The position numbers were made by a program, and so were the translations under genes. From Candidatus Nezhaarchaeota archaeon (lineage in GTDB: Archaea > Thermoproteota > Methanomethylicia > Nezhaarchaeales > WYZ-LMO8), in contig JARXPG010000002.1 of NCBI GenBank assembly GCA_029887785.1, forward strand, positions 62,001-126,000: DNA of 64,000 nucleotides, written 5' to 3'. Positions 34,735-42,338 of the stretch are shown here, piece by piece. How positions within the stretch are numbered: the first letter of the stretch is position 1; each line of letters begins with the position of its first letter. A model generated the notes under the pieces. It was not told the DNA's origin and did no database searches. It worked only from the letters and a program-made list of their open reading frames with translations.

Positions 34735-35157
34735 TTGGGTACGCCTTGTTTCGAGGACCTAAGAACTCTTAGGATCAAAGCCCTTACAGAGAGGATGCCC
34801 GTAGAGGAAGTAATGCGATGCCTTTTAGGCTTAAGTAGAGATGAAGTGAGGACTTACTTCATGCTCCTAAACAAATCAATGACAGTTGACGAGATAGCTG
34901 AAGCCCTAGGTAAGAGCAAGCCTACTGCTTACAGGATAGCCGTTAAGCTCACTAAGATGGGGTTACTAGTGAGGAGAGCTCAAATAATGGAAAGAGGGGG
35001 CTATTACTACAAATATGAGGCTGTCGAACCCGAAACGGTTAAGAGAGGAATTCAAGAGGTATTGAACGTAATATGTAAGAAGGTCTTGGAGGCTTTAAGT
35101 CAAGACTTCGCAGAAGTTAGAAAAAGACTTGCTAGTCAACAAGGTAAGCAATTGTGA
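34735..35157 (+). CDS. Winged-helix transcriptional regulator (TrmB/ArsR-like)
   Basis: This is a 140-aa DNA-binding protein. The segment VRTYFMLLNKSMTVDEIAEALGKSKPTAYR is a clear HTH, followed by a wing (MERGGYYYKYEAV) and a C-terminal helix likely for dimerisation. No effector domain is visible. It starts at TTG 34735 behind a TATA-like box and lies 85 bases before the Fwd/Hdr-type gene cluster on the same strand. The palindromes at 35169-35184 in that gap are candidate binding sites, so it may regulate the cluster. Confidence 0.85.
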   Translation: MGTPCFEDLRTLRIKALTERMPVEEVMRCLLGLSRDEVRTYFMLLNKSMTVDEIAEALGKSKPTAYRIAVKLTKMGLLVRRAQIMERGGYYYKYEAVEPETVKRGIQEVLNVICKKVLEALSQDFAEVRKRLASQQGKQL

Positions 35158-35168
35158 GATTTTACCTG

Positions 35169-35184
35169 TAAATCGATTTAAATC
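35169..35184. promoter_or_regulatory. Overlapping palindromes before the Fwd/Hdr cluster
   Basis: TAAATCGATTTA (35169-35180) and GATTTAAATC (35175-35184) are perfect overlapping palindromes. They sit between the HTH regulator and the first gene it may control, and the AT core could also serve as a TATA box. Candidate operator/promoter. Confidence 0.45.
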
Positions 35185-35242
35185 TCGACAAACGCTCAAC
35201 TAATTACTTGATGAAATGATAGAGAACTGGTGGGGATGAGCT

Positions 35243-35710
35243 TTGTCAAGCAGGGTATCTCCTCTACAAGTCTACAAGTTTCTGCCAGGACTAAACTGCA
35301 AAAAGTGCGGTACGACGTGTATGGGCTTCGCAGTTAAGCTGATAAGTCGACAGGCGAAGATCGAGGACTGCCCTCCACTGGTCAAGGACCCTAAGTACTC
35401 TGACAAGCTTGTCAAGCTGAAGGAACTATTAGCTCCATTACTTTCAGCTGCCGAGACGTTGGTTCAAATAGATCCCGAGAAGTGCATTGGATGTGGCAAT
35501 TGCATTGTGGCTTGTCCTGAAAACATAATTTTAGACCCTACATCAGCTAGAGGATGTAACTCCAAGAGCCCCAATGCTCTGTGGACCGTGGAGGATGGGA
35601 AGATAAAGGTCTTACACCTCGAAAAGTGTAGGCGCTATCCACCTTCAAAAATGAATTGCAATGTCTGCGAAATAGTTTGTTATAGTGGAGCAATTAAAGT
35701 GGTGGCTTGA
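35243..35710 (+). CDS. Iron-sulfur protein: CdhE-type FeS domain plus ferredoxin, Fwd/Hdr-associated
   Basis: This is a 155-aa electron carrier. The N-terminus has the FeS motif seen in corrinoid/acetyl-CoA proteins: LPGLNCKKCGTTCMGFA and a later IEDCPPL Cys. A ferredoxin module CIGCGNCIVACP follows, then a second irregular cluster site ending CNVCEIVC. In methanogens Fwd operons carry simpler FwdG ferredoxins, so this fusion is unusual. It starts at TTG 35243. Its stop overlaps the TTG start of the FwdB-like gene, so it probably feeds electrons to or from that subunit. Confidence 0.85.
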   Translation: MSSRVSPLQVYKFLPGLNCKKCGTTCMGFAVKLISRQAKIEDCPPLVKDPKYSDKLVKLKELLAPLLSAAETLVQIDPEKCIGCGNCIVACPENIILDPTSARGCNSKSPNALWTVEDGKIKVLHLEKCRRYPPSKMNCNVCEIVCYSGAIKVVA

Positions 35711-40998: not shown

Positions 40999-41007
40999 CG
41001 TAGTCTT

Positions 41008-41017
41008 AAGGAGGTGA
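41008..41017 (+). promoter_or_regulatory. Strong ribosome binding site of hdrC
   Basis: AAGGAGGTGA is a near-perfect Shine-Dalgarno site. It ends six bases before the ATA codon at 41024, the best-spaced in-frame codon. No ATG, GTG or TTG in the hdrC frame lies between it and the first cluster motif. Confidence 0.6.
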
Positions 41018-41023
41018 GCAATA

Positions 41024-41497
41024 ATAAATACGTTTTCTTTCGATGTTAATAAGTGCATTCAGTGTGGAAGCTGTGCTTCAGCCTGTCCGGTATCTAGAGC
41101 TACCAGGAGGTTTAACCCTCGATTAATAGTGCTAGCTTTCAAGAGAAAAGCAGTGCTTAGGAGTGAGGACGTGTGGTTGTGCTTAAACTGCCATGTGTGT
41201 GAGGCTCGATGTCCCAACGCAGTTAAGGTCTCACAAATGATCCTCGAAGAGAGGAGGAAGGTCTTGGAATCTCATGGCGAGGATAGGGTTTTCGAGTTTT
41301 ACTCGACTTGGATTAGGGCTCTACTTGATAGCGGCGTCATAGCTTTTGCTACTAACACTAAGGTAGAGGATTTCAAAGCTGAGAGTGGGCTCAACATCCC
41401 AACACTCACAGAGAATGTAAAGCTCGAGCTTCGCGACTTCCTAAGGAGTATAAGTTTGGAGGCGAGGATAAAGGAAGTGATGAGTTTTGAAAGGTAA
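41024..41497 (+). CDS. hdrC: Heterodisulfide reductase subunit C, apparent non-standard start
   Basis: HdrC is the two-cluster ferredoxin linking HdrA to HdrB. From 41024 the frame gives about 157 aa with CIQCGSCASACPVSR and CLNCHVCEARCPNAV, both [4Fe-4S] motifs needed in HdrC. The first canonical start in this frame is GTG 41129, which would delete the first cluster. Upstream there are only ATA codons (41021, 41024) behind a strong ribosome site, then a stop at 41015. Either ATA starts translation, or a one-base slip joins the GTG at 41014 (MSNNKYV, a typical HdrC beginning) to this frame. The 3' end overlaps the TTG of hdrB. Confidence 0.85.
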   Translation: MNTFSFDVNKCIQCGSCASACPVSRATRRFNPRLIVLAFKRKAVLRSEDVWLCLNCHVCEARCPNAVKVSQMILEERRKVLESHGEDRVFEFYSTWIRALLDSGVIAFATNTKVEDFKAESGLNIPTLTENVKLELRDFLRSISLEARIKEVMSFER

Positions 41498-42338
41498 GGG
41501 AGGGGTTGTACTCTATCCAGGATGTGTCTCTCTAAATAAATATCCTGGAATCGTGAGATCGACCATCGAGGTATTGAAGTTTCTAGGAGTAGAGTTTAGA
41601 TTCCCCACGAACATGCTCTGCTGTTCGCGCCCACTTGAAAGAATTGGAATCTTAGAGGAAAGGCAAACCAGCGCTCTTGTGTACTTCAATCTAACTAGGC
41701 TTATGGATAATCCAAGCAACGTCATCGTGGTGTGCAATGGATGCTATCTATCTTTTCGTAGAGCCCTAGACGTTAATGAGCTTAGAAGCAGTTATGGGGT
41801 TGAAGCTGAGTGCTCTCACATAGCTGAGGTTATATGGCGCAATAGGCATGAGCTTGCCAGTCAAGCTAAGGTTAAGCTCGACAAGCTAAGAGTTGCTGTT
41901 CATGTCGGCTGTCACTACCTCTATTACCCGCATGGCGATATAATCAAGGGCGAAGATGGGGAAGATGTCTTAGAGGACATAGCCCTGGCCTTCAACGTCG
42001 AAGTGGTGGATTATGGAGAGAGACGGACTTGTTGCGGAGGGACCATGGTCAAGTGGTTTAGGAACGTCACATTTGCGATAGCTCGAGAGAAGCTGAGAAG
42101 CATCATGGAGAGCGAAGCTAACGTAATCTTAACTATGTGCCCCTACTGCATGAGAACTTTTAACAGAACTCAACAAAGGCTTAAGAGCCTTAGGGAAATC
42201 GAAAGGATCATACCTGTAATCCACGTGTCTCAATTTGTCGCACTAGCCTTGGGTTTTGACCCAGTAAAGATCGTAGGGCTACATTTACAGATGCCAAGCC
42301 AAGAGCTTGAGAGACTCTGTCAAGCTTTAACCTCTTAA
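41487..42338 (+). CDS. hdrB: Heterodisulfide reductase subunit B
   Basis: HdrB carries the two non-cubane iron-sulfur clusters that reduce the disulfide or a related acceptor. Both CCG domains are complete in this 283-aa protein: YPGCVSLNKYPG, NMLCCSRPL and VCNGCYLSF in the first; VHVGCHYLYYP, RRTCCGGTMV and TMCPYCMRTF in the second. It starts at TTG 41487 overlapping hdrC. It converges with the SPOUT/THUMP gene, overlapping it by about 12 bases. Confidence 0.94.
   Translation: MKGKGGVVLYPGCVSLNKYPGIVRSTIEVLKFLGVEFRFPTNMLCCSRPLERIGILEERQTSALVYFNLTRLMDNPSNVIVVCNGCYLSFRRALDVNELRSSYGVEAECSHIAEVIWRNRHELASQAKVKLDKLRVAVHVGCHYLYYPHGDIIKGEDGEDVLEDIALAFNVEVVDYGERRTCCGGTMVKWFRNVTFAIAREKLRSIMESEANVILTMCPYCMRTFNRTQQRLKSLREIERIIPVIHVSQFVALALGFDPVKIVGLHLQMPSQELERLCQALTS

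Follow-up and report, generated by a model that had tools for sequence, protein, structure and literature searches.

The Fdh/Mvh-HdrABC-Fmd/Fwd supercomplex of hydrogenotrophic methanogens (7BKB) brings together heterodisulfide reductase (Hdr) and formylmethanofuran dehydrogenase (Fwd) proteins, among them HdrABC, MvhD, FwdF, FwdG, FwdB and FwdD. Counterparts of these parts are encoded by a cluster of eight genes at positions 34735-42338 of a 64,000-nucleotide stretch of DNA (hereafter the window) from a Candidatus Nezhaarchaeota archaeon (assembly GCA_029887785.1, contig JARXPG010000002.1, positions 62,001 to 126,000 of the forward strand). Unlike the supercomplex, the cluster contains no FwdA or FwdC, no FdhA/FdhB and no MvhAG, and the CO2-site residues are gone from its FwdB-like protein, FwdB2. 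HdrA2B2C2 of Methanosarcina acetivorans (MA2868-MA2867, MA4236-4237) also resembles the window system, since it comprises an HdrA2-type protein with an adjoining polyferredoxin gene, the hdrA2-polyferredoxin operon being MA2868-MA2867 in the sections of PMC9963511 and PMC5296606 that describe it. It differs in that the window holds hdrC and hdrB in the same cluster, and its biochemistry was obtained with Methanosarcina proteins only.

Three further systems invite comparison. The fwdG2B2D2 genes, reported in the relevant passages of PMC2838876 for M. acetivorans, M. mazei and M. barkeri, with constitutive expression of fwdB2, have the same arrangement of a small iron-sulfur protein gene (FeS2), fwdB and fwdD without fwdA or fwdC, and the Methanosarcina loci to which they would correspond fall in the same clade of the FwdB tree as the window. 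Unlike the window genes, they are divergent from hdrA-polyferredoxin, and hdrC2B2 lies elsewhere. Elp-HdrABC (as far as described in the sections of PMC12350162 on this complex) and FhcB provide examples of a protein of FdhA/FwdB fold that has no formate chemistry and sits inside a larger redox complex. ElpA is devoid of the pterin-binding part and FhcB of a D subunit, whereas FwdB of the family considered below is full-length and is accompanied by FwdD at most loci. The Molybdop clade of Methanosarcina (PMC12054007) may overlap with this family.

The initial annotation had described the eight genes as a Fwd-type Mo/W module beside a bifurcating-type Hdr core. All eight open reading frames were found at the places and with the affinities proposed for them, as judged from reading frames and profile matches, and the pairing of the two modules was confirmed at the gene level and recurs in eight genomes. 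The genes are as follows.

34735..35157, plus strand: TrmB/Sta1-type winged-helix regulator at the head of the cluster; G103 and G121 likewise have it upstream
35243..35710, plus strand: FeS2, FwdG-like, with a PF04060 CFeSP-type [4Fe-4S] domain and a 2[4Fe-4S] ferredoxin part
35707..36948, plus strand: FwdB2, the FwdB-like subunit (TIGR03129)
36959..39352, plus strand: HdrA-MvhD/FlpD fusion, HdrA2-like (NF040770)
39358..40665, plus strand: FwdF-like polyferredoxin with eight 4Fe-4S motifs
40642..41058, minus strand: FwdD-like subunit, a molybdopterin dinucleotide-binding domain, convergent with the FwdF gene
41021..41497, plus strand: HdrC, with two 4Fe-4S motifs; proposed start at 41021 or 41024
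41487..42338, plus strand: HdrB, with two complete CCG motifs

None of the Fwd and Hdr matches of the window attained its curated NCBIfam cut-off, indicating that all of these proteins are divergent. FwdB2 scored 249 bits against TIGR03129, below the FwdB equivalog cut-off of 327.8, and the canonical FwdB copy of the host genome 548 bits. The best-scoring family for the window HdrA was NF040770 (HdrA2), which matched HdrA-MvhD over nearly its full length with 993 bits (cut-off 1100). The FwdF-like protein scored 250 bits to FwdF and the FwdD-like protein 39 bits to FwdD, with PF01568 above cut-off. The features of HdrABC are all present, namely an HdrA with FAD and ferredoxin domains, an HdrC with its two 4Fe-4S motifs and an HdrB with both CCG motifs (C13, CC45, C83, C86; C142, CC182, C218, C221). 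The FwdF and FwdD genes overlap by 24 bases at their 3' ends (40642-40665).

FeS2 had been annotated as a two-domain protein. This description had to be corrected, as 12 of its cysteines are invariant across 28 aligned relatives and by their number would suffice for three clusters. The best matches of its structural model (predicted local distance difference test, pLDDT, 85) were weak ones (E 7e-4 to 4e-3) to N-terminal FeS domains of corrinoid proteins and to FwdG; against FwdG of M. wolfeii (5t5i_G/P) the template modelling (TM) score was 0.75-0.77 by target length. The most fitting description of FeS2 is that of a FwdG-like subunit carrying one extra cluster.

The absence of FwdA and FwdC, on which the initial annotation had relied, holds for the locus and fails for the genome. 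The host genome (1.49 Mb, two contigs, 95% complete; the closest named relative of FwdB2 is in Candidatus Nezhaarchaeota WYZ-LMO8, 80% identity) gave a single fwdA hit and a single fwdC hit, which lie with a fused fwdDB on the other contig and are adjoined by ftr, mtd, mer and mch in the region ftr-mtd-fwdDB-fwdA-fwdC-mer-mch; mcrA is present as well. This canonical set rules out that the cluster is the organism's own Fwd. As fwdA and fwdC sit with their own FwdDB, the FwdBD pair of the cluster is a second, separate copy, and the reading of the cluster as a distinct module survived the genome search.

FwdB2 was placed by maximum-likelihood analysis (LG+F+G4) of 101 FwdB rows over 391 columns that exclude the active-site positions; the partial sequences L096, L100, L112 and L113 and duplicate rows of the same genomes had been left out. 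The resulting tree divided the rows without exception into 34 canonical and 67 family members (ultrafast bootstrap 96), and the window protein fell outside canonical FwdB; a position inside it, which would have refuted the initial annotation, was not found. The split is not mere taxonomy, as the canonical copies of Methanosarcina, Methanothrix, Methanoperedens, Methanosalsum, Asgard archaea and Bathyarchaeota sorted to the canonical side; this implies either a duplication older than these groups or the later spread of a distinct lineage. Nor is it an effect of the active-site columns, since these had been removed. FwdB2 of the window belongs to a second, old FwdB family. It shares the marks of this family, i.e. 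an FeS2 gene directly upstream, a position in the same FwdB clade and the absence of Arg288. Many family members (in Asgard archaea, Bathyarchaeota, Methanosarcina and Methanothrix) exceed the TIGR03129 cut-off, unlike the window protein. A planctomycete FwdB-type row, labelled FhcB-like, grouped with the family, at the end of a long branch, and was given no weight.

The two families differ most clearly in their active site. Residues were counted in the 34 canonical rows and in 66 family rows, i.e. without the planctomycete row, L116 being left out. Arg288 is present in 34/34 canonical and 0/66 family rows, His119 in 33/34 and 9/66, and the metal ligand Cys118 in 33/34 and 55/66, including all eight members of the window's clade. 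FwdB2 of the window retains the FeS cysteines C10/C13/C17/C36 and the metal ligand (Cys114), and has Arg115 in place of His119 and Ala281 in place of Arg288; Ala281-Glu282 is invariant in its clade (8/8). Among 61 columns that are near-invariant in canonical FwdB (a comparison from which L181, a canonical-side row that has lost the Cys, was left out), 20 persist in 95% or more of the family, among them the C-terminal E..G...R.D motif and all four FeS cysteines, and Arg288 is the sole one retained in no family member. We take Arg288 of FwdB to correspond to the Arg that is catalytic in formate dehydrogenases. That Arg is held to be important in the passages of PMC13397495 on formate dehydrogenases, and the assignment of His119 to the CO2 site is based on the corresponding part of PMC11656701. 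With both residues lost, the CO2/formate interconversion that the initial annotation had proposed for the complex is not supported.

The fold itself is preserved. The FwdB2 model (pLDDT 91.9) had FwdB 5t5m_B as its best match (TM 0.91, whole length); its further matches included chain D of 8rvu/8rvy as well as two FhcABCD chains (6s6y). The ratio of nonsynonymous to synonymous substitution rates (dN/dS) between the window and a congener was 0.115 for FwdB2, 0.046 for canonical FwdDB, 0.113 for the regulator and 0.028-0.077 for the remaining cluster proteins, although dS approached saturation in this close pair and had reached it for most genes in two wider pairs. By this measure FwdB2 is under purifying selection, weaker than that on canonical FwdDB.

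A search of 300 genomes of the phylum with FwdB2, partial matches to the first 170-200 residues being left out, revealed close relatives (39-100% identity) in seven, the window's genome included; 47 further genomes matched at E <= 1e-20, and those read proved to be canonical FwdB. These seven genomes and one Baldrarchaeota locus make up the window's clade. FwdB2, HdrA-MvhD and FwdF2 occur together in 8/8, FwdD2 lies on the opposite strand in 7/8 (none was found in the eighth), and HdrC-HdrB is present in 6/8, as is FeS2, which is missed once at a contig end and once (L050/L069) where about 950 bases carry no FeS2 gene. The 3' ends of FwdF and FwdD overlap by 4-18 bases in 6/6 loci measured. 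The gene order, which the initial annotation had suggested comparing, is therefore near-constant across the eight genomes; this rules out a chance neighbourhood, and the conserved antisense position rules out that the minus-strand FwdD is a spurious reading frame. Only three of the seven clade genomes tested have mcrA, indicating that the cluster is not tied to methanogenesis.

Outside this clade, a scan of genome contigs with two motifs taken from it yielded 52 family loci; residues inside these motifs are biased by the search, and Arg288, Cys118 and the FeS2 gene lie outside them. Loci were found in Bathyarchaeota, other Thermoproteota, Baldr-, Jord-, Hel-, Thor- and Lokiarchaeota, as well as in Methanothrix, Methanosarcina, Methanoperedens, Methanosalsum and one planctomycete; the viral contigs searched contained no family relative. 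In the genus Methanosarcina the family occurs in 29 of 30 genomes with 77-91% identity (100% for the query genome itself). For 26 of the 52 loci the genome was tested for a second copy, and 24 of these 26 family-bearing genomes have two FwdB copies, the family copy being partial in two. The other copy, read in 16 genomes, has Cys-His and Arg in 16/16.

The immediate partners of family FwdB are nearly constant. The FeS2 gene lies directly upstream in 63/66 loci, the three exceptions being L047 (contig edge), L113 (FeS2 present, FwdB frame broken, with N) and L050 (about 950 bases without it; L050 and L069 are the same genome), and a FwdD-like open reading frame is present at 61/66. The wider neighbours vary by clade, with an apparent argF in Methanothrix, a FwdA-like gene in Asgard archaea and Hdr in TACK archaea, so that the substrate cannot be inferred from the neighbourhood. 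The Asgard FwdA-like proteins keep most His/Lys positions (probable metal ligands). An Asp that is invariant in 12 canonical FwdA, and which would be the catalytic Asp, is replaced by Asn in 14 of the 15 (L077, L079, L087, L099, L101-L110). L082, from Baldrarchaeum, keeps the Asp and combines HdrB, HdrC, FwdD, FwdA-like, FwdF, HdrA, FeS2 and FwdB genes, an arrangement that seems to stand midway between the Asgard and window types.

We propose, with about an even chance of being right, that the cluster encodes a soluble HdrABC-FwdF-FwdG'-FwdB'D' electron-bifurcating or confurcating complex, the Mo/W-pterin module of which acts on a small substrate other than CO2 or formate. The cluster proteins would form one complex, in which the HdrA-MvhD core would be wired through the FwdF-type polyferredoxin and FeS2 to the FwdB'D' module. 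FwdF presumably provides the link to HdrA. Electrons would pass between the substrate at FwdB'D', FeS2, FwdF, the HdrA flavin and HdrC/HdrB, in either direction, a path suggested by the same parts in the methanogen supercomplexes described in sections of PMC12054007 and PMC12350162. HdrC/HdrB would be the high-potential end of this chain. HdrB might reduce CoM-S-S-CoB in the host, where this predicted substrate may exist since mcrA is in the genome, and another disulfide in relatives without Mcr. As the Cys ligand and FwdD are kept, the window FwdB'D' probably still holds a Mo/W-bispterin, at which the small substrate would be reduced or oxidised. The invariant Cys, FwdD in 7/8 and Ala-Glu in 8/8 of the window's clade favour an enzyme with another substrate.

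Several observations weigh against this proposal. The link to Hdr is not general: only 26/66 family loci have an HdrA of more than 600 aa, the Methanothrix stretches having none at all, 3 of the 15 Methanosarcina loci read have no HdrA-MvhD nearby, and at the probable M. acetivorans locus the polyferredoxin gene falls outside the stretch read. The absence of FwdA and FwdC is not general either, as a FwdA-like gene lies near family FwdB at 15/66 loci (in Asgard archaea) and a FwdC-like gene at 1/66 (L091, Helarchaeota). In 11/66 members the metal-ligand Cys has given way to Ser (seven), Arg (two, one of them the probable M. acetivorans copy), Thr (one) or a gap (one), although FwdD-like reading frames still adjoin these genes; at least these members need not carry a Cys-bound metal. 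Furthermore, the residues at the altered positions differ from clade to clade, some canonical residues are changed also in FwdD2 of the window's clade (29 canonical and 62 family rows chosen by BLAST hit, which may include misassigned rows), and the evolution of FwdB2 is faster than that of canonical FwdDB (in one genome pair, dN 0.109 vs 0.042). Finally, FhcB, ElpA and Molybdop with type II HdrA, which are close precedents, either have no catalytic role or have been proposed to lack one.

We considered the possibility that FwdB'D' is a pseudo-enzyme that carries FeS clusters, perhaps without a metal-pterin, and whose role in an HdrA-FwdF complex would be that of a scaffold and electron relay. 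This is a credible alternative, though we would not bet on it. The loss of the Cys in 11 relatives, together with FhcB in Fhc and ElpA in Elp-Hdr (as presented in sections of PMC12054007, PMC12350162 and PMC11656701) and, as has been proposed, the Cys-less Molybdop with type II HdrA, favours such a relay. It would also agree with the loss of Arg288 in 66/66 members, the Asp-to-Asn change in 14/15 Asgard FwdA-like neighbours, the faster evolution of FwdB2 and the planctomycete row on the family side of the tree. Yet the Cys is present in 8/8 of the window's clade, Ala281-Glu282 is invariant there, and the hallmark of FhcB and ElpA, loss of the Cys or of the pterin part, is not seen in the window, where Cys114 and FwdD are retained. 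A full-length FwdB with FwdD also contrasts with ElpA, which has no pterin-binding region, and FhcB, which has no D subunit, in the accounts cited above.

It is improbable that the cluster encodes, as initially annotated, a minimal Hdr-coupled CO2/formate module. The FwdB fold, the Cys ligand and FwdD would allow it, as would the FwdF link known from Fmd-Hdr complexes (in the sections of PMC12054007 that treat them), but the key Arg (passages of PMC13397495) is Ala and the His is Arg, both within motifs that hardly vary among canonical FwdB. Least probable of all is an alternative BD pair swapping into canonical FwdAC, e.g. under Mo/W shortage, since, despite the apparent exchange of Fwd and Fmd subunits in M. 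marburgensis (mentioned in PMC12350162) and the constitutive expression of fwdB2 in M. acetivorans (part of PMC2838876), a pair that has no CO2-site residues and nearly always has its own FwdG-like partner encoded would be a dead one.

The preferred reading, a catalytic FwdB'D' module acting on another substrate, can be extended to the family at large. In 12 of the 15 Methanosarcina loci read, an HdrA-MvhD gene is found divergent and a few kb away, and in 11 of these 12 a polyferredoxin gene lies within the stretch. From their gene order, the Methanosarcina family loci appear to be fwdG2B2D2, and the nearby HdrA-MvhD/polyferredoxin pairs would correspond to the MA2868-MA2867 operon and its counterparts. 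It is tentatively suggested, as something rather less than probable, that an old archaeal Mo/W-pterin family couples a non-C1 redox reaction, by way of an HdrA2-type protein and a polyferredoxin, to flavin-based electron bifurcation, and that this family is nearly universal in the Methanosarcina-genus genomes tested, masked as 'formylmethanofuran dehydrogenase subunit B'. Independently of this suggestion, the sequences indicate that a distinct FwdBD family exists under the Fwd name and is present in tractable methanogens. Such genes go by the name formylmethanofuran dehydrogenase in family models and in one or more earlier papers, yet Arg288 is absent in 66/66. Most family genomes also hold a real Fwd, which makes calls of CO2 fixation from FwdB hits alone unsafe. 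The HdrA-MvhD/polyferredoxin neighbourhood in tractable Methanosarcina makes the electron source or sink of the polyferredoxin testable. In the open-access PMC literature searched we found no paper that describes this family as devoid of Arg288 or ties it to HdrA.

Two observations concern individual FwdB genes. L181 (G326:C1:1470500-1479000, probable M. acetivorans) carries a lone canonical-side FwdB that has lost the metal-ligand Cys and kept Arg288, with no fwdA or fwdC within the 8.5 kb read. For G327, G340 and G341, all in the genus of G311, one in-frame TAA is reported inside the match to family FwdB.

The cluster is not the sole Hdr-linked formate-type locus of the host genome. Another, L125 (C1:1158000-1176000), has a second HdrABC, with the HdrB beside a 1085-aa HdrA, together with MvhD, an FdhA-like protein and complex-I/hydrogenase-type genes of the NuoB/C/D/H kinds. 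The FdhA-like protein seems to have Thr at the likely Cys/Sec site of formate dehydrogenases. The locus resembles the 'Ehg' cluster with FdhF reported for Nezhaarchaeia in PMC9723716, the passages of which on Ehg do not mention a loss of Cys in FdhF. Elsewhere in this mcrA-bearing genome, L127 and L128 (C1:1250000-1289000, 39 kb) encode another four molybdopterin oxidoreductases of large size (734-1086 aa), as well as two fumarate-reductase-type flavoproteins, each paired with a Fer2/Fer4/CCG protein.

The HdrC frame opens about 105 bases upstream of its first ATG/GTG/TTG, there being no such codon in frame ahead of 41129. A GGAGGTGA site lies at 41010-41017, upstream of HdrC, and is followed by ATA/ATA. 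A GGAGGTG-type ribosome site is present in the window (41005-41030) and in L047, L048 and L049, and GGGGTG in L046. The apparent start is ATA in the window and ATT in L047, L048 and L049, and L046 has GTG directly before ATA. The hdrC genes of the window and its relatives may thus share a conserved rare start codon.

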